DNA of 43,553 bases from Bacteroidaceae bacterium. GTDB taxonomy: Bacteria > Bacteroidota > Bacteroidia > Bacteroidales > Bacteroidaceae. How positions within the stretch are numbered: position 1 is the first letter of the stretch; the number at the start of each line of letters is the position of its first letter. Position numbers and translations under genes: made by a program. Below, piece after piece: positions 15,010 through 30,626 of the stretch. Below the pieces are notes generated by a model. The model made no database searches. It was not told the origin of the DNA and worked only from the letters and a program-made list of their open reading frames with translations. The DNA is taken from the NCBI GenBank assembly GCA_017503235.1, contig JAFVTL010000127.1, positions 1 through 43,553 on the forward strand, read 5' to 3'.

Positions 15010-15084
15010 CGGGATGTAGCTCAGTCCGGTTAGAGTACACGTCTGGGGGGCGCGAGGTCGCTGGTTCGAATCCAGTCATCCCGA
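15010..15084 (+). tRNA. tRNA-Pro (anticodon GGG)
   Basis: The cloverleaf can be drawn by hand: acceptor CGGGATG/CATCCCG, D-stem GCTC/GAGT, anticodon stem CACGT/GCGCG around loop CTGGGGG (anticodon GGG at 15045-15047), T-stem GCTGG/CCAGT around TTCGAAT, discriminator A84. CCA is not encoded. The anticodon stem contains one A-C apposition (15039/15053). The 3' half from base 15041 is duplicated exactly at 30581, which marks this gene as the attachment site of the island. The intact copy is on the integrase side. Confidence 0.93.
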
Positions 15085-15086
15085 CA
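15041..15086 (+). repeat. attL: 46-bp direct repeat within tRNA-Pro
   Basis: Identical to 30581-30626. It starts in the anticodon stem, includes the whole T arm and acceptor 3' strand, and ends 2 nt past the discriminator base. The flanking bases differ on both sides (15040/30580 and 15087/30627). Confidence 0.93.
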
Positions 15087-15159: not shown

Positions 15160-15206
15160 GGTTTAATTGGTGGTTTAATCGATGGAATTAAACCGAGAAT
15201 TAAACC
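15160..15206. promoter_or_regulatory. Putative integrase arm-type binding sites, left end
   Basis: Four copies of the octamer GGTTTAAT/ATTAAACC: 15160-15167 and 15172-15179 in one orientation, 15187-15194 and 15199-15206 in the other, evenly spaced at 12 bp within each pair. Related copies occur near attR (30498-30517). The position next to the integrase start and both element ends fits arm-type sites for the integrase N-terminal domain, and could also allow autoregulation. Confidence 0.6.
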
Positions 15207-15214
15207 AAGAATTT

Positions 15215-16435
15215 ATGGATGCTACTATTTCGGTCATTTGTTACAAGAGTAAAACACTTAGTAATGGAGAACACCCACTAATGCTACGGATAGCACAAAA
15301 CGGAAAGAGTAAATACAAAAGTCTTAAAATATCCGTTGCTGCTAAACATTGGGACTTCGACAGAAATGTCCCCAAATCTAATTGTCCGAGTAAAGACCTT
15401 ATCAACAAAATTATCCTAAAGACCAAGCTTGAATATCAGCAAAAGGTTTTGGAGAAGAAAGCAAACGAAGAAGAGTTCACAGCCTCATCACTAATCCATG
15501 AACAAAAGGACGAAATCAAGGCTATGACTGTAGATGATTTCTACAAACAGCTTATCAACGAACTTAAAGAGAAAGGGCAGATAGGCAATAGTTATGCTTA
15601 TCTAAGTTCTTATGACAATTTAAAGAACTTCAATAAAGGCAGGAAGTTAAACTACACATTCAGCCATATTGATGTTGTTTTCTGCAAGAAGTTTGAAGAT
15701 TGGATGCGTAGAAAAGGCAACAAGGACACAACTATCAGTTTTCAATTCAGAACATTAAGAGCCGTTTTCAATCGTGCCATTTCAGCCAAAGCAGTAAGTA
15801 AAGACAAGAATCCTTTTGCCGAGTTCAAGCTAAGTCACCTCAACACCAAGACCATGAAGCGAGCATTGTCAAAAACAGACATTCTCAAAATAATGGATGC
15901 AGATTGCCACGACAAAAGCGAATTAAGTCAACTTGCACATGACTTATTCTGCTTCTCTTATCTTTGTGGTGGAATCTCATTAGTTGACATGGCTAATCTG
16001 ACACCTCTTAATATCATTGAAGGTCGATTAATATATCAACGTCAGAAGACACATGGCAACATCAATCTTCAATTATCGGATAGAGCCTTGCAGATAATCA
16101 ACAAATACAGCGATTACCAAAAGAAAGCTTACTACTTCTTCCCTATTCTGCACAGCAAGCGACATATCACACCGATGCAGAAACATAATCGTGTCCGAAA
16201 ATATTGCTTGCACATCAATCACGAATTGAAGCTATTGGCAAAAGAGCTGAACATCACAGCTAACGTAACAACATACGTTGCTCGTCACTCTTTTGCTACA
16301 ATTCTTAAAAAGTCTGGAGTAAATATCGGCATTATATCACAAGCATTAGGACACCAAGACATCAAGACTACTCAAATCTATTTAAGTAAGTTTGATAATG
16401 AACAAGTAGATGAAGCTATGAAGAATCTGCTTTAA
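15215..16435 (+). CDS. Site-specific tyrosine integrase (IntDOT-like)
   Basis: Catalyses integration and excision of the island at tRNA-Pro. It is 406 aa from ATG 15215, the start typical of this family (MDATISVICYKSKTL); the earlier ATG at 15182 would translate the arm-site repeats. Domains: N-terminal arm-binding domain (about 1-90), SAM-like core-binding domain (about 110-210), catalytic domain. Catalytic residues seen: Lys in QKTHGN, Arg357 in YVARHSFAT, His380 in LGHQD, Tyr389 nucleophile. The usual first Arg is Gly here (CGGISLVDM), and the His of HxxR is replaced. Bacteroidetes integrases such as IntDOT also lack the first Arg and are active, so this is not evidence of inactivity. Confidence 0.93.
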   Translation: MDATISVICYKSKTLSNGEHPLMLRIAQNGKSKYKSLKISVAAKHWDFDRNVPKSNCPSKDLINKIILKTKLEYQQKVLEKKANEEEFTASSLIHEQKDEIKAMTVDDFYKQLINELKEKGQIGNSYAYLSSYDNLKNFNKGRKLNYTFSHIDVVFCKKFEDWMRRKGNKDTTISFQFRTLRAVFNRAISAKAVSKDKNPFAEFKLSHLNTKTMKRALSKTDILKIMDADCHDKSELSQLAHDLFCFSYLCGGISLVDMANLTPLNIIEGRLIYQRQKTHGNINLQLSDRALQIINKYSDYQKKAYYFFPILHSKRHITPMQKHNRVRKYCLHINHELKLLAKELNITANVTTYVARHSFATILKKSGVNIGIISQALGHQDIKTTQIYLSKFDNEQVDEAMKNLL

Positions 16436-16508: not shown

Positions 16509-17375
16509 ATGATAGATAAACTGAAATGTGATGTCCCGTCCATGAAACTGATGGACTATATAGGTGTAGTTGAATCTTTATACCTATCTGACCCTACCCT
16601 CATTGATGAACCTTACCATATAACGGACAGAGAACCAACCGAAGAAGAATTGGAAGAAATCAGAAATTGTCCCTTCGGATTTACTATGTGTATGGGCATA
16701 TTTAAAGAGAGGTACAACAATGATATTATTACCAATCGCTTTACATACAACGATTACATAAAGAATAAGGAAATTCAAGAACTTGTCAATTATCTAGAAT
16801 TGGACGTAGATAAGTTCTGGTTGCTCATTCTGTTTATCTTCGACTATTGTACAAGCCGATTCTACCAAGGCATAACAATGAAACTTACTCCATTGGAACA
16901 GCTTACCCATCTTCTTGAACTTATTTCTCTTTCCGGAAACGAAACAACATTCAATATCAAATTTGGAAAGTTGAAGCTGGAAATAGATAATGCCGATACA
17001 ATAAACTTCATGGCAGAAGCAATAGCCAAGCATCTGAATGAATCCGATATACAAACATTGCGTAGTCTGAACGGCAAAGAACAAGAAGATGAATCAATAA
17101 TCATCAAGGAATCTCCGTTCATAGCCTACTTTGCCAATATGTTTCTCCGTTTTTTCTCCACACAATCATATATCAGAGATAAGCGGAAAGCAGGTGCAAA
17201 CCATTCTAAGAAAGAAATGGAACTTGTATCATTACTTGTCTATTTCACCAGACTATCTAAAAATGAAAGTTGGTTCTGCCCCGAAGAAAAATATCTGAAA
17301 GCATACCTTAAACAATACAAAGGCTATAAATACCCGAACAACATCAGCAACGTCTATCCAGAGTTCTATTATTAA
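16509..17375 (+). CDS. Hypothetical protein, island-associated
   Basis: A 288-aa protein I do not recognise. It is acidic in the N-terminal third (TDREPTEEELEEI) and predicted helical. One moderately hydrophobic stretch (FWLLILFIFDYC, about 98-109) is too short and charged around its edges to call a membrane helix with confidence. There are no signal peptide, cysteine cluster or nucleotide-binding motifs. It has its own -7 box and a strong terminator, so it is a single-gene unit beside the integrase. This is a position where excision or regulatory proteins are sometimes found, but at 288 aa it is far larger than a typical excisionase. Confidence 0.7.
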   Translation: MIDKLKCDVPSMKLMDYIGVVESLYLSDPTLIDEPYHITDREPTEEELEEIRNCPFGFTMCMGIFKERYNNDIITNRFTYNDYIKNKEIQELVNYLELDVDKFWLLILFIFDYCTSRFYQGITMKLTPLEQLTHLLELISLSGNETTFNIKFGKLKLEIDNADTINFMAEAIAKHLNESDIQTLRSLNGKEQEDESIIIKESPFIAYFANMFLRFFSTQSYIRDKRKAGANHSKKEMELVSLLVYFTRLSKNESWFCPEEKYLKAYLKQYKGYKYPNNISNVYPEFYY

Positions 17376-17448: not shown

Positions 17449-17827
17449 ATTCCCCTAAATCGCTTTTTATTCCCTATATCTTCGCAGCATCAAAGGAAAA
17501 GAGTTCATTACTTGATGCAAGGGGGATAAGAACCGTCAAAAATTTATTCCCCTAAATTGAATAAGAAAACTCCGACTTTTGCAATGTCAAAGGACAAGAG
17601 GTCATTGAGTAGTTGAGAGGGGAAACGATTCATTCCGTACAGCAGACATCTAATATCGGTAGTCAAGGAAGTTCCCTCCGAAGAATAGTAAGGGGGAATA
17701 GAAATCGACAAAATTTTATTCCCCTAAACTAAGTAAAGAAACTCCGACCTTTGCATCATCAATCAACGACATGGGCGCCCGTTGAAGATTGGTAAACTTA
17801 GTAATAACCATTTAAAGATTAAGACTT
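17449..17827 (+). repeat. Intergenic triplicated ATTCCCCTAAA / hairpin / promoter-like repeats
   Basis: No gene is seen here. ATTCCCCTAAA occurs near 17449, 17547 and 17719. The last two copies close hairpins whose left arms are GGGGGATAA (17521) and GGGGGAATA (17692). Each is followed about 15-20 nt later by ACTCCGAC(C/T)TTTGCA (about 17570 and 17741), similar to the TAnnTTTG box but with GA for TA. Such a hairpin-plus-box unit, repeated upstream of the 17828 gene, may be tandem regulated promoters or protein-binding sites. Confidence 0.6.
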
Positions 17828-18414: not shown

Positions 18415-18825
18415 ATGTTTACCATTAACAACGATATAGCCCACAGAGAAATAAAGACATTGATGAAGCAAGGCAAGAACCTTGATATTCACATCGATGA
18501 TTCATTTGCACTAATCAGTACCCATGCAGTTACAGGACTTCAATACATGCTAACTCCCGATAATTGGAAATGGTTACTGAAGTACTTACGGACTGGTGAC
18601 TATGAAGACTTCGGCATATTCCCGTCTGACACCTCAAATGCTTTTACCGCTTTGGAACATTTGAAAGAACTAATCGAAAGTCGATGCAATATCGCACGCA
18701 TACCTTTCCTTAGAGAAACACAGGCTTTCGTAAAGTTGAGAGGATTATTCAAATTCGGCAAGCTGTTTTTCAGCATCAGAAGAACCGATGATTTTATGGA
18801 CTACTTAAATGAAAATGGATTATGA
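18415..18825 (+). CDS. Hypothetical protein, island-associated
   Basis: A 136-aa protein from ATG 18415 (an in-frame ATG at 18379 falls inside a hairpin and is disfavoured). It is soluble with no recognised motif; the sequence has YMLTPDNWKWLLKYLRTGDYEDFGIF in pieces and a C-terminal basic region. Its stop overlaps the helicase start by 4 nt (ATGA), so translation is coupled and the protein may act with the helicase. Not recognised as any named family. Confidence 0.68.
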   Translation: MFTINNDIAHREIKTLMKQGKNLDIHIDDSFALISTHAVTGLQYMLTPDNWKWLLKYLRTGDYEDFGIFPSDTSNAFTALEHLKELIESRCNIARIPFLRETQAFVKLRGLFKFGKLFFSIRRTDDFMDYLNENGL

Positions 18826-20561
18826 TAACATTAAAAGAAGGACAATACTTATCAGACGTAATGAATGAAATTCCATCTAATTGCATCTTGTCAAAGAGAA
18901 TACCAGGCTGTGGTGCTACTACATTGGAGCTTGACACAAACAGAAGCTCCATTATCGTAGTACCTAACGTTCCTGTAATCGTAAGCAAGTGCAACAAGTA
19001 CGATAACCTGTTAGGTGTTTATGAGGGTGTAAATCAAAGTCAGATTATCGAATACCTAAGAGAGAATCGCATCCGTAAGATTATGACCACTCCAGAAAGC
19101 TTTAGCAAAGTGAAATCAGCTTGTGAGAAATGCGGAATCAATGTCTATTCCGATTTCTTCTTGTTAATGGACGAGTGTCACCAACTAATTAAAGATGTGG
19201 ATTACAGAATCGACATAGTTATGCCGATGAATGACTTCTTCCTGTTTAATCGTAAGGCATTGGTGTCCGCTACTCCAATCGGATTCAGCGACCCACGATT
19301 TGAAGAAAACCGTTTTGAGATTATAGAAATTACTGCCGATTACGATTATCGACAGGATATAACCGTAACCCATACCTATAATATAGCTAAAGCGGTTGGT
19401 CAATATCTGGAGAGCCATAATGAAACAGTCTGTTTCTTCGTTAATTCAGTGGTTGAAATCTACTCGATAATGAATCAGTTCGGCTTATTGGAACATTCAG
19501 CCGTTTATTGCGCTCCGAAAAGTCGCAATAAGCTGAAATCTGAATATGGCTTTACTAATGCTTATACTGAATGGAGTGCAGAAACCATGAAGAAATACAA
19601 CTTCTTCACAGGTCGTTTCTACACTGCATTTGACTTGGAGCTACCATATCAACCAGACTTGGTAATAATTACTGACCCATACAATGCCGAATATACCATG
19701 CTTGACATTGATACAGACTGCATACAGATATGTGGTCGTTTTCGTAATGGCATAAATTCGGCTACTCATATTTATAGAGTGAATCCCGAAATCATAGCTA
19801 AGAGCAGGGAACAAATCGAATGGGAAATCTCGGCTCATGAGTTTGCATACACCACGATCCAAACTCTTTATAATAGTGCGGAGAATAAAGAAAGTCGTTT
19901 TGCGTTTGGTGCTGTTCTGGAAACTTTGCCATTCCGCAAGTTCCAATATCCAGACTTTACTAAGAATTGGTTCGCCATAGATAATGAGATTAACGAAGTG
20001 TTGGTTCAAAGCCAATACCAATCTGACATACTAATAATGGAATGGTACAAGGACTGCCATTTTTTCAATCCAACATTCACTAAATGCAGCTATGACGAAA
20101 ATGACGAAAAGATGAAGATTATTAGAGCCGCACGTTCAGTAAAGGACAAACGCAGAAAAATGGTGAAACTTCTTTCTGAAATCGAAGAACCATTCTCGGA
20201 ATATGCGTTAGACTTTATAAATGACATGCGCAAGATTGACCCGTTTATTGTGGATGCTTGGGAAGTCTTGGGAGCAGAAAGATTAGAAGAACTGAAATAC
20301 AATCAGAAAGACCTGAACGAGGAAATGATATTGGCTCAACGTAAAGGGAACAAGGTTGTCAAGTTAATTAAGAATACATTCAAGATTGGAAGCAGATATT
20401 CCAATGAATTTATTGTTAATGAATTGACCCGAATCTTTGACTTGATGAACATACACCCAGAAAAAGAAATCACACCGAAGATTATCAAGGATTACTTTCA
20501 AGCAGTGAATTGTTGGGTTGGTAAGAAGAAAGGTTATCAGTTGGTAAGTGCATTAGTTTAG
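18822..20561 (+). CDS. DEAD/DEAH-like SF2 helicase, Walker A degenerate
   Basis: A 579-aa protein with SF2 helicase landmarks: a P-loop-like GCGATT (29-34), DECH box (117-120), SAT motif III in ALVSATPI (149-151), and motif VI QICGRFRNG. The canonical Walker A lysine (GKT) is replaced by Ala (GCGATT). A related GCG(A/G)TT signature appears, as I recall, in Bacteroidetes phage and island helicases, so it may be a family trait rather than decay. The C-terminal 250 residues carry no known domain. It is coupled to the 18415 gene. A role in element replication or DNA processing is inferred from context. Confidence 0.75.
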   Translation: MITLKEGQYLSDVMNEIPSNCILSKRIPGCGATTLELDTNRSSIIVVPNVPVIVSKCNKYDNLLGVYEGVNQSQIIEYLRENRIRKIMTTPESFSKVKSACEKCGINVYSDFFLLMDECHQLIKDVDYRIDIVMPMNDFFLFNRKALVSATPIGFSDPRFEENRFEIIEITADYDYRQDITVTHTYNIAKAVGQYLESHNETVCFFVNSVVEIYSIMNQFGLLEHSAVYCAPKSRNKLKSEYGFTNAYTEWSAETMKKYNFFTGRFYTAFDLELPYQPDLVIITDPYNAEYTMLDIDTDCIQICGRFRNGINSATHIYRVNPEIIAKSREQIEWEISAHEFAYTTIQTLYNSAENKESRFAFGAVLETLPFRKFQYPDFTKNWFAIDNEINEVLVQSQYQSDILIMEWYKDCHFFNPTFTKCSYDENDEKMKIIRAARSVKDKRRKMVKLLSEIEEPFSEYALDFINDMRKIDPFIVDAWEVLGAERLEELKYNQKDLNEEMILAQRKGNKVVKLIKNTFKIGSRYSNEFIVNELTRIFDLMNIHPEKEITPKIIKDYFQAVNCWVGKKKGYQLVSALV

Positions 20562-20566
20562 TTAAT

Positions 20567-20630
20567 ACCTACCTTTTTATCAATTCTTGTCTCTACTATA
20601 CCCGAAACAGAAATTTGCGAAAAGGTTGGT
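20567..20630 (+). repeat. 64-nt structured repeat, copy A
   Basis: First of four related elements (others at 24662, 25571, 26701). It begins 5 nt after the helicase stop. Outer stem ACCTACCTTTT with AAAAGGTTGGT (one T-T mismatch), inner stem about positions 17-24 with 41-48, and an apical loop holding ATACC at positions 32-36. It lacks the downstream T-run of a terminator. Confidence 0.8.
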
Positions 20631-20700
20631 CGTACCCTAACTAATCATCAAAATCGCTTCATAATCTTCATAACTAATGATTCTGATTTTTTAACTTGGA

Positions 20701-20892
20701 ACTTTTTCGGAATATAAATACAATAGCATAGATAGGAAATCAGACATGGAATCACTTCCGAAAAAATTTCAAAAATCAGATTTCTAACGTCCGAAAAAGT
20801 GGTGTTCAAATAAGCAGGTGCGAGGTGTTCATTTTAGCAGGTCTACTTACTAATACCTATATACTAATACCTATTACATCAAACTTTTTCGG
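20701..20892. repeat. Iteron-like repeat cluster, candidate origin or operator array
   Basis: The 20631-20951 gap has no recognised gene but dense repeats. ACTTTTTCGG occurs at 20701 and 20883; its inverse CCGAAAAAGT at 20791 and a variant at about 20758. Two 19-mers, GGTGTTCAAATAAGCAGGT (20801-20819) and GGTGTTCATTTTAGCAGGT (20824-20842), lie 23 bp apart. TACTAATACCTAT is tandemly repeated at 20848 and 20862. Nested direct and inverted repeats in AT-rich DNA upstream of a winged-helix gene resemble a replication origin (iterons) or a multi-site operator. Confidence 0.65.
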
Positions 20893-20951
20893 GAAGATAC
20901 TCAAACAGACTTTCAGATTCTTACTAACAAATAAATTAACTATTTAATCCG

Positions 20952-21113
20952 ATGATTATTCACCTACCAACGGGAAAGACATTTATTACTCAGAAGGATG
21001 CCAAACTTTACTTTGGTAATCACTATTACAGAAGATTGGTCAAGAAAGGAGATATTTATTTCACTAACTATAATTCCAAGGTTGCTAATGACCCAATACA
21101 GAAAAATAACTAA
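20952..21113 (+). CDS. Small basic hypothetical protein
   Basis: A 53-aa ORF from ATG 20952 to TAA 21111, too short for routine ORF lists. The product starts MIIHLPTGKTFITQKDAKLY and continues with a basic, aromatic-rich stretch (YYRRLVKKGDIYF). Codon pattern and amino-acid composition look genuine, and its end overlaps the start of the winged-helix gene (ATG 21088) by 26 nt, suggesting translational coupling. No function is recognised; a small DNA-binding or regulatory partner of the next protein is possible. Confidence 0.5.
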   Translation: MIIHLPTGKTFITQKDAKLYFGNHYYRRLVKKGDIYFTNYNSKVANDPIQKNN

Positions 21114-21702
21114 AAACATGGCAGGCAAATTAAAGCCGAAAGAAGCATACCTATTCTATTGTCTGGCTCTCAAATCTGATTTTATTACTTATGAATCAAA
21201 TATTGAGCAGGAAAGTTTAGCTAAAGAATACGGAATAGAAGATACTGACCAGATTAGTGATTGGCTATACAAGTTCCAATCTTATGGATTACTAAGAATA
21301 ATCAAACTCAACATCAAAGGACAATATGGGAAATTTCAAAAATGCCGATACCTATTAAATACAGATAATTATGTTTTCATTTCCGATTTATTGAAAGATG
21401 AGCCGATAAGCAGACAACTGAAAGGATTCTTGATATTGCTAAAATGTAAGTGTTTGAGTGGAACAAACACAACATTATATAGCCAAAACCAATTAGCTAA
21501 AGAATTGGGCATAGGTAAAAGCACTATTTCTAATTACATGAAAGAAGCCGAAGAAAAAGGATATATTACTAAGGACGAGAAAGGAATCCATTTAATCAGA
21601 GAAGATATTTTCTATTTAGTTAATATGCCAAAACCAGATTCCCGAAAAAAGAAAAACAAGTCCGAGAAGTCCAAAGAGATACTAACTATTATATTAGACT
21701 GA
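21088..21702 (+). CDS. Winged-helix DNA-binding protein (replication initiator or regulator candidate)
   Basis: A 204-aa protein from ATG 21088; the frame is open back to 20998 but the added residues read like noise and overlap the small ORF in another frame. Two helix-turn-helix-like segments are visible: ESLAKEYGIEDTDQISDWLY (about 46-65) and NQLAKELGIGKSTISNYMKE (about 137-156), the second a good winged-helix recognition region. The C-terminus is strongly basic (RKKKNKSEKSKE). Tandem winged helices next to iteron-like repeats are the layout of Rep-type initiators, but a repressor of the same region is equally consistent. Confidence 0.72.
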   Translation: MTQYRKITKNMAGKLKPKEAYLFYCLALKSDFITYESNIEQESLAKEYGIEDTDQISDWLYKFQSYGLLRIIKLNIKGQYGKFQKCRYLLNTDNYVFISDLLKDEPISRQLKGFLILLKCKCLSGTNTTLYSQNQLAKELGIGKSTISNYMKEAEEKGYITKDEKGIHLIREDIFYLVNMPKPDSRKKKNKSEKSKEILTIILD

Positions 21703-22123
21703 TACAGAGCCGTAGGTAAACTTTTACTTATGGCTCTTACTATTTAATGGGCAGACAAATCCAAAGCCTATAAAAGTCCGAATCAGATTTTTTAATGAGT
21801 TCGGCTGAAATCAGAGATATTATAGCATATACTCCAGAATCAGCACCACACTATTATTATCATTAAAAAGACTAACTAATGAAGAAAAAGCCAGATTCAA
21901 GTTTAGCTAAAATTCAAGAAAATGAGAAATAGGATTCCTTTATTTAAGCCCCCTCCCTATTAGGTTTCCGAGGTCAAAATTTATAAGAGTTAGTCACATG
22001 AGAGTTCACCAATATTAATACCCCTCCCATACTTATATCTGGGAAAATAGATATTAAATAGCCGTATAATATCCGTAACATAATTATAGAAATAATAGAG
22101 TATCAACTAATAATAATTTTCTT
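21703..22123. other. Intergenic region without a convincing gene
   Basis: About 420 bp of AT-rich DNA. Only tiny ORFs occur, for example 23 codons at about 21797 and 17 codons at about 21880; neither is supported. Two C-rich patches (AGCCCCCTCCCTATTAGG near 21947 and AATACCCCTCCCATA near 22018) stand out from the AT background. No -7 box is seen for the DUF3871 gene. Confidence 0.5.
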
Positions 22124-23146
22124 ATGAACGAACTAATTATGTTACCTACTACGAGTAGGAGAAGCCTAAATTTAGGTGAGTACGCAGAAGAAGCTATCGT
22201 TGTTGACGAACCAATCATTACAAGAGCTTTCAAGAGTTTGCATTTCATTGAAGCGAACACCAACGAAGTAGATTTGCATCACCTCAAAACGGATTGCATT
22301 ACTCCTGTTTTTGCAAAGGACAATGAACTGACAATCAATCATGCTCAATTCATTGAAACAATCCAAGATGCAGTAAAGGATTACTTTAGAGGGGAAATCG
22401 TAGATGATGCAGCTATCAGAGTAAGCCATATTATTAAAGGTAGAATCCCCGAAGCGATTCACAAGCCTGCCAATCAGTTGTTGGAATCTGATAAAACGCT
22501 TTACTATGAGCGTTGTGCATTTTCTATTGATGTGCCAAGCATTTATCAAGATGTGAACGGTAATCGTTTGAATCTTTCCATCGTGGGTGTTCGTGCATAC
22601 AACTTGCAATCCTTGTACACCAAGAAATCACCAGAACTTTTCAAATTGGCTATTGGATTCAAGAATCAAGTTTGCTGTAACATGTGCATCTTTACAGATG
22701 GTTACAAGGAAGATTTGAGGGTGTGTAGCACGAATGGACTTTACAAGGCCGCAATGGAATTGTTCAACAACTTCAATCCTGCCAAGCAACTTCACTTGAT
22801 GCAGCAACTTAGCAATACTTCAATGTCAGAACACCAATTCTGTACATTCTTGGGTAAGTCCAGACTATATCAATGTTTGTCAACCAACAGACAGAAGCAT
22901 TTGCCAAGATTGTTGCTGACTGATACGCAAATCAATCTTGCTGCAAAAGCATATATCAAGGATGAAAACTTTGGTGGAACAGGTGGTGAACTCAATATGT
23001 GGAATTTCTACAACCTTTTGACAGGTGCAAACAAAAGTAGCTATATTGATAGCTTCTTGGATAGAAGTTTGAACGCGTCAGAGATTGCAATGGGCATAAA
23101 CGCAGCTTTGCATGGTGATGAGAAATACAAATGGTTCATTGATTGA
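22124..23146 (+). CDS. DUF3871 family protein
   Basis: A 340-aa protein matching the Bacteroidetes DUF3871 family by recollection of strings such as VSHIIKGRIPEAIHKPA, LLESDKTLYYER, GFKNQVCCNMC and GANKSSYIDSFLDRSLNA. The family is carried on mobile elements and lacks an assigned reaction; its logic resembles DUF932-type plasmid proteins. It is soluble and cytoplasmic, with a Cys pair (CCNMC, about 186-190) conserved in the family. A hairpin terminator follows. Abundance-type codon use suggests decent expression. Role in the island unknown. Confidence 0.85.
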   Translation: MNELIMLPTTSRRSLNLGEYAEEAIVVDEPIITRAFKSLHFIEANTNEVDLHHLKTDCITPVFAKDNELTINHAQFIETIQDAVKDYFRGEIVDDAAIRVSHIIKGRIPEAIHKPANQLLESDKTLYYERCAFSIDVPSIYQDVNGNRLNLSIVGVRAYNLQSLYTKKSPELFKLAIGFKNQVCCNMCIFTDGYKEDLRVCSTNGLYKAAMELFNNFNPAKQLHLMQQLSNTSMSEHQFCTFLGKSRLYQCLSTNRQKHLPRLLLTDTQINLAAKAYIKDENFGGTGGELNMWNFYNLLTGANKSSYIDSFLDRSLNASEIAMGINAALHGDEKYKWFID

Positions 23147-23170
23147 TGGGCTAATATTGATTGGAAGGAG

Positions 23171-23204
23171 AAAGGGCATCCGTTTTGGGTGTCCTTTCTT
23201 TATT
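23171..23204 (+). terminator. Terminator of the DUF3871 gene
   Basis: AAAGGGCATCC (23171-23181) pairs with GGTGTCCTTT (23188-23197) with one bulge and a G-T pair, followed by CTTTATTTATT. Confidence 0.7.
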
Positions 23205-23229
23205 TATTAACTAATAAATTATAAAACAA

Positions 23230-23682
23230 ATGAATACAGATTATAGAGTAGCAGAAGTTGGACTTACATACAGAAATAGAGTTCCAAAGAAAGATAGAAA
23301 ACAGATTCTTGATTCACATTCAGCATACAACATTCTCCGAGAAAACTTTTCGGACGATACGATAGATTACAGAGAAACTTTCAAGGTTCTCTATATGAAT
23401 CAAGGTTGTCAAGTTCTTGGATGCTCCACTATTTCAGAGGGTGGAATAACTAATACATTGGCAGATGTGAGAATGATTCTTCAAGGTGCTTTATTGACTA
23501 ATGCAACAGCAATGGTTTTGGCACACAATCATCCAAGCGGTAGCACAAGACCAAGCAGACAAGATGATGAATTAACCCGTAAAGTTGTAGATGCTGCAAG
23601 ACTTCTTGATATAAAAGTCGCAGACCATATCATTTTGACAAGTGAGGATTTTTACAGCTATAATGACGAAGGACGCATCTAA
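23230..23682 (+). CDS. RadC-like JAB/MPN domain protein
   Basis: A 150-aa RadC-type JAB domain protein. The JAMM metal-site signature AHNHPSGSTRPSRQDD is intact (His99, His101, Asp112), together with the family end VADHIILTSEDFYSY. The N-terminal helix-hairpin-helix of full-length RadC is absent, as is normal for the short versions on plasmids and islands. The predicted role is a metal-dependent hydrolase or nuclease-like function in DNA handling, though no RadC activity is firmly established. It has no -7 box of its own. Confidence 0.9.
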   Translation: MNTDYRVAEVGLTYRNRVPKKDRKQILDSHSAYNILRENFSDDTIDYRETFKVLYMNQGCQVLGCSTISEGGITNTLADVRMILQGALLTNATAMVLAHNHPSGSTRPSRQDDELTRKVVDAARLLDIKVADHIILTSEDFYSYNDEGRI

Positions 23683-23695
23683 TACCTTATTATAT

Positions 23696-23896
23696 ATGAA
23701 AGCAAATTTCTTGATATTACTTGATTGTTCCGTAGGCGAACTAATCAAGATACGTTTGAGTGAAGAAGAAAAGATAGAATCTGAAAGCTATGAAGATTTT
23801 GAGGAATTTATCTGCACTTTGGAAGATAAGTACAATTTCAGACTTAGCGACTGTTCTTGGATGAGTTGCGATGTTCTGAGCGAACGCAGTTACTAA
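23696..23896 (+). CDS. Small hypothetical protein downstream of radC-like gene
   Basis: A 66-aa protein from ATG 23696 (MKANFLILLDCSVGEL), 13 nt after the RadC stop. The frame is open upstream to 23642 but that part overlaps RadC. It is strongly acidic (EEEKIESESYEDFEEF) with two Trp/Cys in the C-terminal part (DCSWMSCDV). It is likely cotranscribed with the RadC-like gene. Function not recognised. Confidence 0.65.
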   Translation: MKANFLILLDCSVGELIKIRLSEEEKIESESYEDFEEFICTLEDKYNFRLSDCSWMSCDVLSERSY

Positions 23897-23918
23897 CAAA
23901 TTACACACTTTTATCATT

Positions 23919-23978
23919 AGTGAACATATCTATGAAATTCAACTACTTACAAATTGGGCTTCATGGATAATGTTCACT
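23919..23978. repeat. 60-bp imperfect palindrome upstream of the small recombinase
   Basis: AGTGAACATATCTATGAA (23919-23936) pairs with TTCATGGATAATGTTCACT (23960-23978): a perfect 9-bp outer arm AGTGAACAT/ATGTTCACT and an inner 8-9 bp arm with one mismatch and one bulged A. It ends 31 nt before the recombinase ATG. It could be an operator or a recombinase core site with two inverted binding arms. Confidence 0.7.
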
Positions 23979-24009
23979 TTTATTGTTTAACTACTAAAAC
24001 CGAACATTT

Positions 24010-24597
24010 ATGAGCCAGAAATATTCTACTACAACTGCCGATTTCCTTGTTTGGAGTGATGCAATGAATCTTATCCGAAAATTGGCGAAAGATAATAACT
24101 ACAAAATGTCGCTTCTTGTAGCACTTGGTTGTTTTACAGGATTGCGAATATCTGATATTCTCGCTTTGAGGTGGAATCAGATACTTGGTGTTTCCGAATT
24201 TACCATAATTGAGAAGAAGACAGGTAAGAAAAGAACACTAAGACTGAATCCGCAATTGCAGAAACATATACAGGAATGTTACGAACATATCCAACCTATC
24301 GGAGTGAAAGCACCGATTTTGGTAAGTCAGAAAGGTACAATCTTCACTATCCAAGCTATAAACAGGATATTGAAGGACATTAAGAAGAAGTACAAGGTCA
24401 AGATTAAGAATTTCTCATGCCACTCTCTCCGTAAGACATTTGGCAGACAAGTTTACAACATGAATAGTGAAAACTCGGAGTTGGCATTAGTCAAACTCAT
24501 GGAATTATTCAATCATAGTAGTGTTTCTATCACTAAACGATACCTTGGTTTAAGGCAAGAAGAAATATTAGAAACTTATGATTGTCTAAGCTTCTAA
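24010..24597 (+). CDS. Small tyrosine recombinase (catalytic domain only)
   Basis: A 195-aa protein containing only a tyrosine-recombinase catalytic domain. All residues are present: Arg46 in TGLRISDIL, Lys70 in the KKTGKK turn, His138-x-x-Arg141 in CHSLRKTF, His169 in FNHSS, and Tyr178 in TKRYLGL. A core-binding SAM-like domain is missing, so DNA recognition must come from the short N-terminus or a partner. Unlike the 15215 integrase, its active site is canonical. A large palindrome lies upstream and a 63-nt structured repeat downstream, either of which could be its substrate. Invertase, resolvase or cassette recombinase are all possible. Confidence 0.85.
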   Translation: MSQKYSTTTADFLVWSDAMNLIRKLAKDNNYKMSLLVALGCFTGLRISDILALRWNQILGVSEFTIIEKKTGKKRTLRLNPQLQKHIQECYEHIQPIGVKAPILVSQKGTIFTIQAINRILKDIKKKYKVKIKNFSCHSLRKTFGRQVYNMNSENSELALVKLMELFNHSSVSITKRYLGLRQEEILETYDCLSF

Positions 24598-24607
24598 TTC
24601 TTGGTTC

Positions 24608-24660
24608 GGTAGATTTTTCGAAAATTTTCCTCTTTAATGGGGAGATTCTGAAAATCTACC
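24608..24660 (+). terminator. Long-loop hairpin after the small recombinase
   Basis: GGTAGATTTT (24608-24617) pairs perfectly with AAAATCTACC (24651-24660), loop 33 nt. It starts 10 nt after the stop and runs directly into the structured repeat at 24662. Terminator function is uncertain because no T-run follows immediately. Confidence 0.5.
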
Positions 24661-24661
24661 A

Positions 24662-24724
24662 ACCAACCTTTTTGATGATTTATTTATCACCATACCCATT
24701 GCAATAAATGAAGAAAAGGTAGGC
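24662..24724 (+). repeat. 63-nt structured repeat, copy B
   Basis: Same architecture as copies A, C and D. The outer stem has an A-A mismatch at position 4 (ACCAACC against GGTAGGC). The inner stem is ATTTATT with AATAAAT: positions 21/44 are A-T and 23/42 T-A here, against T-G or C-G and G-C in the others. The loop keeps ATACC. Confidence 0.8.
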
Positions 24725-24837
24725 TTATAATACCATTCAAAGAAAGTAGAGAAATCTCTGTAAAATAATTTTTGAATTATGCAAATATTTATAATTCACT
24801 GATTTTCAATTGATTTTAATAATTCAAATTTTATACA

Positions 24838-24845
24838 TAGCTTTG
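24838..24845 (+). promoter_or_regulatory. -7 promoter box of the 24907 gene
   Basis: TAGCTTTG matches TAnnTTTG, 61 nt before the ATG at 24907. The 24725-24837 stretch holds no gene. Confidence 0.6.
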
Positions 24846-24906
24846 CACCAACGAAATCGATTCCGCTAAAACAATCCAATTATTTAATCTTTAAAACTTA
24901 TCTGTT

Positions 24907-25542
24907 ATGAGTAATTTAAGAACTTACTTCAAGAATGTTGTGTCCGTATGTAAGAAAGGTTTTGCTTATGTGAGAGCTATCTCAGTTCTTGTTAAAGCTA
25001 CATATCAAAGAATGGTTGGTAATGGAATCTATAATGTTTCATTCATCAAGATTGGTAGAAAATGGTATTGTGAAGTGCCTGGATTCCCGAAAGAATTATT
25101 TGAGCATACACTAATGGTTGGTGGTGCAGCAAAGCTTCTTGACTACCATGCTAGAAGTGGAAAAAGAATTGCTATGAAAGTAAAGATTACCAATGAAGAA
25201 AATGGTAATATGGGATTAGTAAAAAATAGTTCCACCTCAACAGGTGGTGCATTTTACAATGACCTTAGTGGTTCTGTAAATGAAGAAATCTGGTTGTGTC
25301 CTGTAACCTTATTTGTGTTAGGCAAATATCCGAAGAATATTCAGATTCTTGAAGTGTGTGGTTGTATGCCATCAAAAGAGCAACTTGAACATATACTCTA
25401 CAATGCTATCGAATATTGTCTGAAAGATACAAGAAAATATATTGAAGAAAACATTGTTGCGGAGTTTAAGAAGGCAAAATCAATCCATCATCAGCTTGAT
25501 ATAGTTGAAGGTTTTGCAGAAGGAATAGGATATAAATATTAA
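24907..25542 (+). CDS. Hypothetical protein, single-gene module
   Basis: A 211-aa soluble protein I do not recognise. The N-terminal 40 residues are basic (RTYFKNVVSVCKKGFAYVR). A central segment, KWYCEVPGFPKELFEHTLMV, contains the pattern W-Y-x-(V/L)-P followed by a hydrophobic-Gly-Gly turn. The C-terminal half is helical and charged. There is no signal peptide or catalytic motif. The gene has its own promoter upstream and a 64-nt structured repeat 28 nt after the stop, so it is an independent unit like the next gene. AT-rich codon use suggests recent transfer. Confidence 0.7.
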   Translation: MSNLRTYFKNVVSVCKKGFAYVRAISVLVKATYQRMVGNGIYNVSFIKIGRKWYCEVPGFPKELFEHTLMVGGAAKLLDYHARSGKRIAMKVKITNEENGNMGLVKNSSTSTGGAFYNDLSGSVNEEIWLCPVTLFVLGKYPKNIQILEVCGCMPSKEQLEHILYNAIEYCLKDTRKYIEENIVAEFKKAKSIHHQLDIVEGFAEGIGYKY

Positions 25543-25570
25543 ATATCTCAATTAATTAAATCATTCAGAC

Positions 25571-25634
25571 ACCTACCTTTTTGATGATTTTTGTTCTTAC
25601 CATACCAATTACAGAAATTGAAGAAAAGGTAGGT
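25571..25634 (+). repeat. 64-nt structured repeat, copy C
   Basis: The best-formed copy. Outer stem ACCTACCTTTT with AAAAGGTAGGT has no mismatch; inner stem ATTTTTGT (17-24) with ACAGAAAT (41-48) is complete with one T-G pair; ATACC is in the loop. Confidence 0.82.
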
Positions 25635-25683
25635 TGAATATGAGATTATAATATATAGACTAATCTGACTTTATAATATTTTG

Positions 25684-25691
25684 TAATTTTG
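25684..25691 (+). promoter_or_regulatory. -7 promoter box of the 25721 gene
   Basis: TAATTTTG matches TAnnTTTG, 29 nt before the ATG at 25721. Confidence 0.6.
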
Positions 25692-25720
25692 TTGTTGTAA
25701 AGAATTTAACAGAAAAATAT

Positions 25721-26683
25721 ATGGCAGAAATAAAAAGATGCCCTGTACATTTTATAGATTTAGGGCTATCCGTAAGATGGAATGATCGAAACATCTGTGC
25801 CAACTATCTTGGAACAGGAAAGTATGTATCCTTTGGAGGAAATTTTAGGGAAACTCAAGATGGATACTTATTTGCAAAAGGTAATTATAAATCTCCTAAA
25901 GGTGAATATGCAGGATTTGGACAACAAACGATTGTTCTAACCTCAAATGATTCTGCACACAGCTATAATCTTAGGATGCCAACATACAATGAAGTCGAAG
26001 AATTAACCTTAAGTGATAATATTGAATGGTTTGTTGCATTTCGATTGGTAGAAAAAAACATAACCAATGGAATTATAAATAACAACAACCCTTGCATCAG
26101 CTTTTATCATGATAAGGATAGCAATTTTTTGTGTCGTGTTTATAAAGAGATTCGTGTTTTTCTCGGGAAAGAACCTTTCGCTTGTGAACTTAACGGCATA
26201 GATTATAGGCTGTTTCTTAAATCTCGTTCTATAGGAACAAATGATGGCGAAGTCGTGTTTTGGGAATCAGCAAATGAAATAGAACCTTTTTATCTTGGTG
26301 CTTGCAGGAAGAACACAAAAAATATATACCGATATTATTGTGAGAGCAAAGAGGAAATTACAGTTAATAGATGGTATGACAATATATTAACAATACCTTT
26401 TTCTGGCATTATGAAATACAATACCATAAGAAGAACAAATAATATAGACAGAGGTATCCTAAAAAATGGGCTTAGAAAATGGGATGCATGTTTCCCTTGT
26501 GGAAGCATAGACCAAAAATATGCTTTTTATAACATAGCATTATTCAATTATGTAGTGTCTCATGATGGTGATAAATTTAATTTTGACTCTCGCCCATATA
26601 TTGCTTTTTCAAAAACCCCTTGGGATGGAATGAATGTTAGAGCCGTAGAAAATACTCCAGATAGCCCACCACGGTATTATTAA
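25721..26683 (+). CDS. Protein with FIDLGLSVRW / RMPT domain (Fibrobacter-type paralogous domain-like)
   Basis: A 320-aa protein. The N-terminus HFIDLGLSVRWNDRNICANYLG and the later LRMPTYNEVEEL follow the pattern VDLGLSVKWA.CNVGA ... RLPT..E..EL of a domain that is widespread in secreted Bacteroidetes and Fibrobacter proteins. Unlike those, no signal peptide is visible, so it appears cytoplasmic. The central and C-terminal parts are rich in aromatic residues and Cys. It is a single-gene unit with its own promoter and a structured repeat 17 nt after its stop. Function unknown; surface or ligand-binding roles of the secreted relatives may not apply. Confidence 0.7.
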   Translation: MAEIKRCPVHFIDLGLSVRWNDRNICANYLGTGKYVSFGGNFRETQDGYLFAKGNYKSPKGEYAGFGQQTIVLTSNDSAHSYNLRMPTYNEVEELTLSDNIEWFVAFRLVEKNITNGIINNNNPCISFYHDKDSNFLCRVYKEIRVFLGKEPFACELNGIDYRLFLKSRSIGTNDGEVVFWESANEIEPFYLGACRKNTKNIYRYYCESKEEITVNRWYDNILTIPFSGIMKYNTIRRTNNIDRGILKNGLRKWDACFPCGSIDQKYAFYNIALFNYVVSHDGDKFNFDSRPYIAFSKTPWDGMNVRAVENTPDSPPRYY

Positions 26684-26700
26684 AAATACAATAAATCTAT

Positions 26701-26764
26701 ACCTACCTTCTTGCATTTTTCTGTAACGATAATACCAAATACAGAATTTTTCAAAAAGGTAGGT
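26701..26764 (+). repeat. 64-nt structured repeat, copy D
   Basis: Outer stem ACCTACCTTCTT with AAAAAGGTAGGT has one mismatch. In the inner stem positions 21/44 are C-G where copies A and C have T-G and copy B has A-T, a compensatory change. ATACC is at positions 32-36. Confidence 0.8.
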
Positions 26765-26883
26765 ATTTATTTTGTACATATAAAAATAGCCTGTATAATC
26801 CAAAACATATATTTAGAGAAATATATTTCAATTGCTCATCGAAAATTATCCAATTTCATACGGCAAATTTATACGCTTTTTAC

Positions 26884-26891
26884 TAACTTTG
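26884..26891 (+). promoter_or_regulatory. -7 promoter box of the structured RNA / cargo operon leader
   Basis: TAACTTTG matches TAnnTTTG. Transcription would start near 26898, about 80 nt before the first hairpin elements and 290 nt before the gene at 27188. Confidence 0.55.
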
Positions 26892-26897
26892 TTGCAA

Positions 26898-27140
26898 TTC
26901 TGATAGCATTAGCTGTTAGAAGGACATATTTAGTAAGAGCGTTTGACATTATCTTAGTTCAGAAAATCGCCAATTTTTATGAACAACTCTAAGATGATAG
27001 GCAAGACGCTCACGCATAGTTTATACTCACCAACTCAGGTGAACTATATCCTCATGCGTGGGCTATTGCTGTTTATCTGAGTTGTGGGTGTTTGGCGATA
27101 CCTCTGGACGGATATAGGCAATAGTTCCCACGCTTCTTTT
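26898..27140 (+). ncRNA. Structured leader RNA or small RNA with pseudoknot and terminator
   Basis: Hairpin H1: CACGCAT (27011-27017) with ATGCGTG (27054-27060), then AGTT/AACT and CACC/GGTG around hexaloop AACTCA. CAACTCAG (27031-27038), which includes that loop, is fully complementary to CTGAGTTG (27077-27084), giving a pseudoknot. ATCGCCAA (26966-26973) pairs with TTGGCGAT (27092-27099). A terminator-like stem GCGTGGGCTATTGC (27056-27069) with GCAATAGTTCCCACGC (27118-27133) precedes TTCTTTTAT and shares bases with H1, so the two exclude each other. Either a free small RNA or an attenuating leader of the 27188 operon. No known family is assigned. Confidence 0.65.
26979..27080 (+). CDS. Possible leader peptide inside the structured RNA
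   Basis: A 33-codon ORF, ATG 26979 to TGA 27078, covering hairpin H1 and ending exactly in the pseudoknot-pairing strand. The product ends in the hydrophobic RGLLLFI. A ribosome on this ORF would disrupt H1 and free the terminator strand. Short ORFs occur by chance, so this is tentative. Confidence 0.3.
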   Translation: MNNSKMIGKTLTHSLYSPTQVNYILMRGLLLFI

Positions 27141-27187
27141 ATAATCTGCTTACTTCTGGGAATTGGTTTGCAATAATATAAAACATT

Positions 27188-27625
27188 ATGGGATTATTCA
27201 GTTATTTTCTTAATAAAAATCAAGCGACAGAATTAGAAGATACAATAGTCGCTTGTTGGAATAAAATACAAAATTACAAGAAAAGTAATATTGAAGGAGA
27301 TAGAATGTCGCACTTTGGTACTCTATTTTTCTCTGGTATGCGTGAAAGGTCTAAATTACAAGAGCCAGACCCAATTGATTATTCTAATCATGGCTTAGAT
27401 TTATCTTACATCAATAACTACAAACAATATGTTCTTATTGCAACCGTAGGACAATTTCGCACACTAAACATGCAATGTAGCGAACTTGCTACAAAAATCA
27501 ACGAATATTGTCAATTAGCAAATAAAATGGGAATAAATATTTCGCAGAATGTATCAGTTGTTAGAAAGGATTTATATAGACTTGTTTTAGAACTTAAATA
27601 CAGCTATAAATATGTGGTGGAATAG
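27188..27625 (+). CDS. Hypothetical protein, first gene of cargo operon
   Basis: A 145-aa soluble, helical protein I do not recognise, beginning MGLFSYFLNKNQ. The N-terminal amphipathic start resembles a membrane-surface helix, but no true transmembrane segment is present. Its 3' end overlaps the next gene by 14 nt, indicating coupled translation. The gene pair (about 145 and 125 aa) starts the only clear multi-gene cargo operon of the island, downstream of a structured leader. A and T at third codon positions are much more frequent than in the chromosomal backbone. Confidence 0.72.
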   Translation: MGLFSYFLNKNQATELEDTIVACWNKIQNYKKSNIEGDRMSHFGTLFFSGMRERSKLQEPDPIDYSNHGLDLSYINNYKQYVLIATVGQFRTLNMQCSELATKINEYCQLANKMGINISQNVSVVRKDLYRLVLELKYSYKYVVE

Positions 27626-30580: not shown

Positions 30581-30626
30581 GTCTGGGGGGCGCGAGGTCG
30601 CTGGTTCGAATCCAGTCATCCCGACA
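30581..30626 (+). repeat. attR: 46-bp copy of the tRNA-Pro 3' half
   Basis: Identical to 15041-15086. The 5' half of a tRNA is absent upstream, so this is not a functional tRNA gene. Its own terminator follows, showing that this junction is the original chromosomal right flank. Confidence 0.93.

Follow-up and report, generated by a model that had tools for sequence, protein, structure and literature searches.

The contig JAFVTL010000127.1 of a Bacteroidaceae bacterium (assembly GCA_017503235.1, 2.6 Mb, 84% complete) was analysed over 43,553 nt, a stretch referred to here as the window. An island of about 15.5 kb within it carries four copies, A to D, of a hairpin 63–64 nt long, together with a gene for a small tyrosine recombinase, and the possible role of these hairpins as folded recombination sites bounding exchangeable genes is the subject of this report. 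The recombinase gene (24010..24597) heads an array in which it is followed by a hairpin of a second type, T1 (24608..24660), and then by copy B, one gene, copy C, one gene and copy D, all on the plus strand. Copy B (24662..24724) is the first site past the recombinase and T1 and begins 64 nt past the recombinase stop codon (24597). Copy C (25571..25634) begins 28 nt past the stop codon (25542) of the first cassette gene, which encodes a protein of 211 amino acids assigned by domain search to DUF6717 (24907..25542), and copy D (26701..26764) begins 17 nt past the stop codon (26683) of the second, an open reading frame (ORF) at 25721..26683 whose 320-residue product has no Pfam or NCBIfam match. 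Copy A (20567..20630), also on the plus strand, starts 5 nt past the stop codon (20561) of a helicase-like ORF at 18822–20561. An earlier note on this DNA had placed four plus-strand copies after genes, and its coordinates proved to be exact, the starts lying 5–64 nt past stop codons.

Each copy is composed of an 11-bp outer stem, about 5 unpaired nt on each side, an inner stem of 7–8 bp and a loop with the motif ATACC; copy A has one mismatch within the outer stem, and its loop of 16 nt contains ATACC as well. Measured against dinucleotide shuffles, the folds reach z = −2.7 (A), −2.3 (B), −5.5 (C) and −7.0 (D), with 5 of 200 shuffles folding as well as or better than copy B and none doing so for A, C or D. 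Over 64 nt, copy C is 73% and copy D 69% identical to copy A. A pattern scan of the whole assembly revealed no places besides A–D, and the same four places were the only ones found in this assembly by a covariance model of the hairpin, named R1, at E ≤ 0.01 (7 matches counting strands). No match to A–D was obtained in Rfam 15 at E up to 1, and the hairpins of the related locus L112 were likewise unmatched. A terminator scan of 20400–27200 called 6 sites (3.2 in shuffles), none of which corresponds to A–D, in agreement with the earlier view that these are not ordinary terminators.

The recombinase adjoining the array is 195 amino acids long, and Phage_integrase (PF00589) is its sole credible Pfam domain. 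Six residues, R46, K70, H138, R141, H169 and Y178, are invariant across 42 homologs; by their pattern they are taken here to be the catalytic set, which is thus intact. Among solved structures, the catalytic part of XerA (5hxy residues 138–310, E 9e-8) is nearest in sequence. Simple tyrosine recombinases are described in an excerpt of PMC8138268 as consisting of a core-binding and a catalytic domain, and the small recombinase family has only the catalytic domain of that two-domain plan. Xer/XerA single recombinases are the closest solved relatives, but the protein studied here lacks the N-terminal half and is found in mobile islands. Homologs at E ≤ 1e-45 occur in 38 of the 399 genomes of the family that were searched. 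Among 359 plasmid and 139 phage records all matches are below 60% identity, the best being a nearly full-length match of about 41% in a Bacteroides phage. A structure prediction for the recombinase, made from five sequences, reached a mean predicted local distance difference test (pLDDT) score of 65, fell below 50 in the C-terminal part, and was not used.

T1 (GGTAGATTTT...AAAATCTACC), which lies between the recombinase stop codon and copy B and often has a TTTATA-like tip, is a candidate part of an attI-like region. At 44 recombinase loci, counted after one duplicate row had been dropped, a strong inverted repeat of 45–74 nt is present within 100 nt past the recombinase stop codon in 28 cases, whereas 100 shuffles averaged 2.06 such cases (at most 7) and random 100-nt stretches from the same loci gave 45 of 880; two of the 28 (L172, L177) resemble ordinary terminators, and a third, L190, is doubtful. 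Tandem T1-type hairpins, two or more in number and roughly 5–200 nt apart with no genes between them, follow the recombinase in L164, L179, L189 and L194. Upstream of the recombinase, on the same strand, a region named T0 (23903..23978) has putative half-sites picked out by eye, ACACACTTT and AGTGAACAT, separated by a 7-nt spacer, and a third putative half-site there forms a hairpin (23919–23978). A half-site common to T0 (AGTGAANNTT) and the T1 outer stems was also looked for, and the signal was too weak to claim one.

The structure of the hairpin is conserved while its outer stem changes, which becomes visible when copies from related islands are compared. The compensatory changes noted earlier at positions 21/44 and 23/42 of the four copies depend largely on reading copy B one base out of register. 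In a sequence alignment of nine copies, none of the pairs in the named structure had changed on both sides, and shuffles were not exceeded in any respect; the structure that RNAalifold itself proposed for those nine copies had two pairs with changes on both sides, its covariation term being unfavourable. With no signal in the nine-copy alignment and two weak RNAalifold pairs, covariation from the window copies alone was dropped as evidence. The copies past the recombinase in genomes G080 and G379, and the one at the same place in G293, keep the loop CATACC..CAGAAAT and have an outer stem of GGGACAAAGTT with AACTTTGTCCC or AATTTTGTCCC. Once these three had been added to the nine, 18 cells were changed on both sides, and neither the number of cells nor the covariation score was matched in any of 500 shuffles; the three copies are close relatives, so that the covariation of the 12 copies is near to one event. 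The orthologous site of copy A, directly past the helicase-like gene, tells the same story at a single place. Copy A is present in 7/7 islands examined (those of the window, SIG136, G379, G080, G293, G261 and G371), a count that excludes islands with more distant helicase homologs. Its loop CTATACCC and arm CAGAAATT are constant across islands, and its outer stem reads ACCTACC/GGTTGGT in the window, GGGACA/TGTCCC in SIG136, G080 and kin, and TACCAACA/TGTTGGTA in G379. Four distinct rows of this site yield four pairs changed on both sides, with a covariation score reached in 2 of 500 shuffles. The earlier proposal of selection on a folded RNA or single-stranded DNA thus gains support through the relatives, the four copies on their own being insufficient for it.

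The genes between the hairpins differ from one island to another. L112, from the Bacteroides metagenome-assembled genome SIG136, has a recombinase 99% identical to that of the window. Next come T1 and one hairpin, then the DUF6717 gene with another hairpin after it, and finally the downstream flank. L112 matches the window over 23968–25634 and again over 26779–27173, so ORF 25721 and one hairpin are absent from an otherwise colinear island; the gap in the match, 25634–26779, means that the window holds one more gene and one more hairpin. L268, from G261, retains the 3′ portion of the recombinase together with T1 and one hairpin, and beyond these a flank like that of copy D, to which it aligns with a score of 36 (maximum of 200 shuffles 27), against a score of 16 for the flank of copy C; compared with the L112 flank, the similarity is marginal (score 34, the shuffles reaching 33). 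Between the same landmarks, the related islands form a series with zero (L268), one (L112) and two (window) genes. L268 reads as an internal deletion derivative; at 1014–1437 it has the start of the main integrase (codons 2–61) fused to codons 96–195 of the small recombinase, beside a similar tRNA 3′ end. Different genes again are found past T1 and a hairpin in L093, L029/L200 and L130. Directly past the hairpin in L130 there is a gene start, 41 residues of it on the contig, that we take to resemble a lincosamide-resistance-type nucleotidyltransferase. Remnants of the recombinase persist as its last 23–26 codons in L093 and L029 and its last 100 in L268.

With regard to the cassette genes themselves, the sequence upstream of the DUF6717 gene is also present at homologs elsewhere that have no such hairpins, namely L204, L205 and L210–L212. 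ORF 25721, searched at E 1e-8 in 30 selected genomes, matched only in the window's own genome, and in IMG/VR no relatives of either cassette gene were confirmed. Downstream of copy A, 21823–21868 is 72% identical over 46 nt to the 3′ end of ORF 25721–26683 and is perhaps a decayed cassette.

A difference in the presence of the recombinase unit provides the best-mapped junction. In G080, a gene for 75 amino acids is followed by T0 with the recombinase and by a hairpin, whereas G293, G371 and G261 have the same 75-residue gene and the hairpin without the right half of T0 and without the recombinase; the flanks of G080 and of these three genomes are 97–98.5% identical upstream and about 90–92% downstream. 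At the junction, a 7-nt spacer separates the left half-site of T0 (TTACACTTT) from the hairpin's 5′ arm (GAATGGGACAAAG). The same recombinase-less junction is present in G232, which belongs to another genus, and in all four genomes it probably goes back to one shared event, either a gain or a loss. Because the only well-mapped junction sits at the 5′ edge of a hairpin, the mobile unit may consist of a hairpin and the gene after it.

The hairpin is not confined to the island in the window. In the 399 genomes of the family, R1 at E ≤ 1e-4 matches 10, that is, nine besides the window's own, so that the further copies whose absence would have told against the earlier note do exist; a search of the genus at E ≤ 0.01 finds matches in 8 of 61 genomes, the window's own included and G416 doubtful. 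A bulk pattern search returned 102 stretches in genome contigs and 17 in viral contigs, and convincing palindromic copies were found in L029, L093 and L112 only; L028, L115 and L123 passed a simple stem filter and were judged to be chance, and the remaining stretches failed it. A full recombinase is encoded somewhere in 6 of the 10 hairpin genomes, compared with 38 of all 399 (P 8e-5), and in 5 of 9 when the window's genome is left aside (P 5e-4), although the hairpin genomes are few and carry closely related islands, so that these P values do not come from independent events.

The explanation favoured here, with a confidence a little above even, is that the hairpins are folded single-stranded DNA recombination sites bounding cassettes, and that the small recombinase uses them, much as in integrons, to gain and lose genes. 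The recombinase would bind the hairpin through its outer and inner stems, set apart by short unpaired spacers, strand exchange would take place at the hairpin edge, and single units of one gene and one hairpin would be gained, lost or replaced downstream of the recombinase gene. The hairpins, their conserved structure with changing outer stems, the neighbouring recombinase with its intact catalytic set and the natural differences in gene content are observed; that the small recombinase acts on the hairpin sites, that its substrate is single-stranded and that the cut falls at the 5′ edge of the hairpin is what we infer. Folded recombination sites had been one of two options offered in the earlier note, and they are preferred here on the strength of the recombinase next door, the single gene between copies and the differences in gene content; the other option, an element of the 3′ untranslated region bound by an island protein, has fared less well, given the DUF6717 homologs that have no hairpin.

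Several observations weigh against the favoured explanation. Recombination itself was not observed, gene gain and loss being read from the comparison of islands, and the crossover for the gain of a cassette is not mapped to the base because 14–34 nt beside the hairpins differ between islands. No array seen has more than two cassettes. A full recombinase adjoins the hairpin in only four of the 10 genomes (G000, G080, G379 and G053) and lies elsewhere in G293 and G371; of the rest, G261, G151 and G358 have recombinase remnants beside the hairpin, and G232 has the recombinase-less junction. Conversely, 32 of the 38 genomes with a recombinase have no R1 match at E 1e-4, many of them having the T1 type, and at 5 of the 44 recombinase loci (L132, L172, L177, L178 and L183) a terminator-like stem, identified by eye, stands in the place of T1. 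Not every loss of a gene ends at a hairpin: G232 lacks the DUF6717 gene and has no hairpin at the right end of the loss, and in G379, which also lacks this gene, the ends lie about 190 and about 95 nt from the two nearest strong hairpins. As for covariation, the six pairs changed on both sides in the 12-copy test were matched by 60 of 500 shuffles, and sliding by one column still yields five; at the copy-A site, 92 of 500 shuffles had at least as many such pairs. Finally, in SIG136 and G379 copy A has an outer stem unlike those of the other copies in the same island, and the idea that each island has a single outer-stem sequence suited to its recombinase was rejected on this ground.

That the hairpins are instead RNA elements at the 3′ ends of mRNAs, involved in stability, processing or protein binding and unrelated to recombination, is considered unlikely. 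In favour of this reading, all copies lie in gene orientation and shortly past stop codons, and the persistence of copy A past the helicase-like gene in the window and six relatives fits it, as does the fact that T1 occupies the place of terminator-like stems in some relatives. However, no copy was called as a terminator, the DUF6717 homologs mentioned above do without the hairpin, the hairpins stay while the genes between them differ or vanish, and one difference, that of the recombinase unit, ends at a hairpin edge. More unlikely still is deletion by replication slippage at long inverted repeats, or by homologous recombination between similar hairpins, with no dedicated enzyme involved. The identity of copies C and D to copy A would suit this process, and some gene losses do end away from hairpins; it leaves unexplained, however, how one place comes to have different genes, why the hairpins are linked to the recombinase, why loop bases are conserved and how the recombinase-unit junction came to join two unlike sites. 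A dispersed insertion repeat entering after genes, of the repetitive extragenic palindromic (REP) or miniature inverted-repeat transposable element (MITE) kind, is very improbable. The hairpins are indeed palindromic, intergenic and present in several copies in one island, but copy A occupies its site in 7/7 islands examined, it is the outer stems and not the presence that vary, and no copies were found elsewhere in the window's genome.

If the hairpins are recombination sites, the arrays come close to integrons in their organization. Single genes follow each other in tandem and in the same direction, each with one two-stem hairpin (here B–gene–C–gene–D, with two genes), the stems are split by short spacers and end in a variable tip, the sequence varies while the structure is kept, and a recombinase lies beside the array. 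The integron site attC, as outlined in an excerpt of PMC2727003, has R and L boxes, and its unpaired central spacer (UCS) comprises 5 nt per arm in the Vibrio cholerae repeat (VCR), 3 of them unpaired. Arrays without an intact recombinase, such as L093, L029 and L268, have a parallel in the clusters of attC sites lacking integron-integrases (CALIN elements) described in part of PMC8618304.

The differences are nevertheless considerable. The profile TIGR02249 scores 24.2 bits against a cut-off of 265, over residues 23–93 only, so the recombinase falls outside the IntI family, and it has no core-binding domain, its 195 residues aligning to XerA 138–310. The core motif of attC is RYYYAAC/GTTRRRY, which is found at the hairpin edges in none of the four copies, one chance-like GTTRRRY overlapping the 3′ edge of copy C. 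Moreover, the recombinase is oriented towards the array and has the first site at its 3′ end, and the one well-mapped junction lies at the 5′ edge of a hairpin. Because integrase profile, domain layout and core motif all differ, the system is not classed here as an integron. When the extrahelical bases are inverted in integrons, the recombination point shifts from R′ to R″, according to the excerpt of PMC2727003, by analogy with which a cut at the 5′ edge of the hairpin would be mechanistically possible.

Integrons have been reported from Bacteroidota (PMC8618304, in part). In the open-licence literature, which leaves subscription journals and preprints outside, no title among the matches listed deals with integron-like Bacteroides arrays or with such hairpins. 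To our knowledge, the capture of genes through the recombination of folded single-stranded DNA is known from integrons. A more far-reaching proposal, which is put forward tentatively and with less than even confidence, is that gut Bacteroidaceae possess a gene-capture system independent of integrons, in which a catalytic-domain-only recombinase would shuffle hairpin-bounded genes in mobilizable islands and the sites would be read by shape, their outer stems differing even at one orthologous site. If this is true, the strategy is not unique to integrons and has a second representative in gut Bacteroidaceae, a very small recombinase is able to carry out folded-site recombination, and the mobile islands of gut bacteria have a route by which to change their cargo.

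The island itself has a copy of a 46-nt repeat at either end, both on the plus strand. The left copy (15041..15086), recognized by repeat comparison and tRNA annotation, overlaps a tRNA gene at its 3′ end, and the right copy (30581..30626) was recognized by repeat comparison. Next to the left end, its main integrase (15182..16435, plus strand) has arm-binding, SAM-like and catalytic domains by domain search. With these tRNA repeat bounds and an arm-binding integrase, the island is like the integrative mobilizable elements of Bacteroidales that have an IntCTnDOT/NBU-type integrase; the difference is that the main integrase accounts for movement of the whole island and not for the internal, hairpin-bounded genes. 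A 70-nt repeat is present twice, at 17521–17590 and 17693–17762, the two copies being 79% identical and each beginning with a GGGGAATA..TATTCCCC-like inverted repeat.

Past copy D, a conserved stretch of about 250 nt (26890–27141) contains several paired arms and is met again in other islands downstream of the recombinase, L112, L131, L132 and L268 among them. It is preceded by what we take to be a Bacteroides-type promoter, gave zero matches in an Rfam search and may represent a new structured leader RNA.

Two observations concern the movement of related islands. In L132, a contig from a viral collection, the end of the cargo directly joins an arm-type integrase and an ORF like that at 16509–17375 of the window (8001–15112 of L132, by eye), a layout that resembles, judged by eye, a circular or tandem form of the island. 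A related island in G151 is flanked on either side by the 3′ end of one and the same chromosomal gene (L029 4602–5612, L200 12164–12328), and the end of the same gene is found at one end of L130 (665–850), which suggests that this type of island also inserts at that gene.

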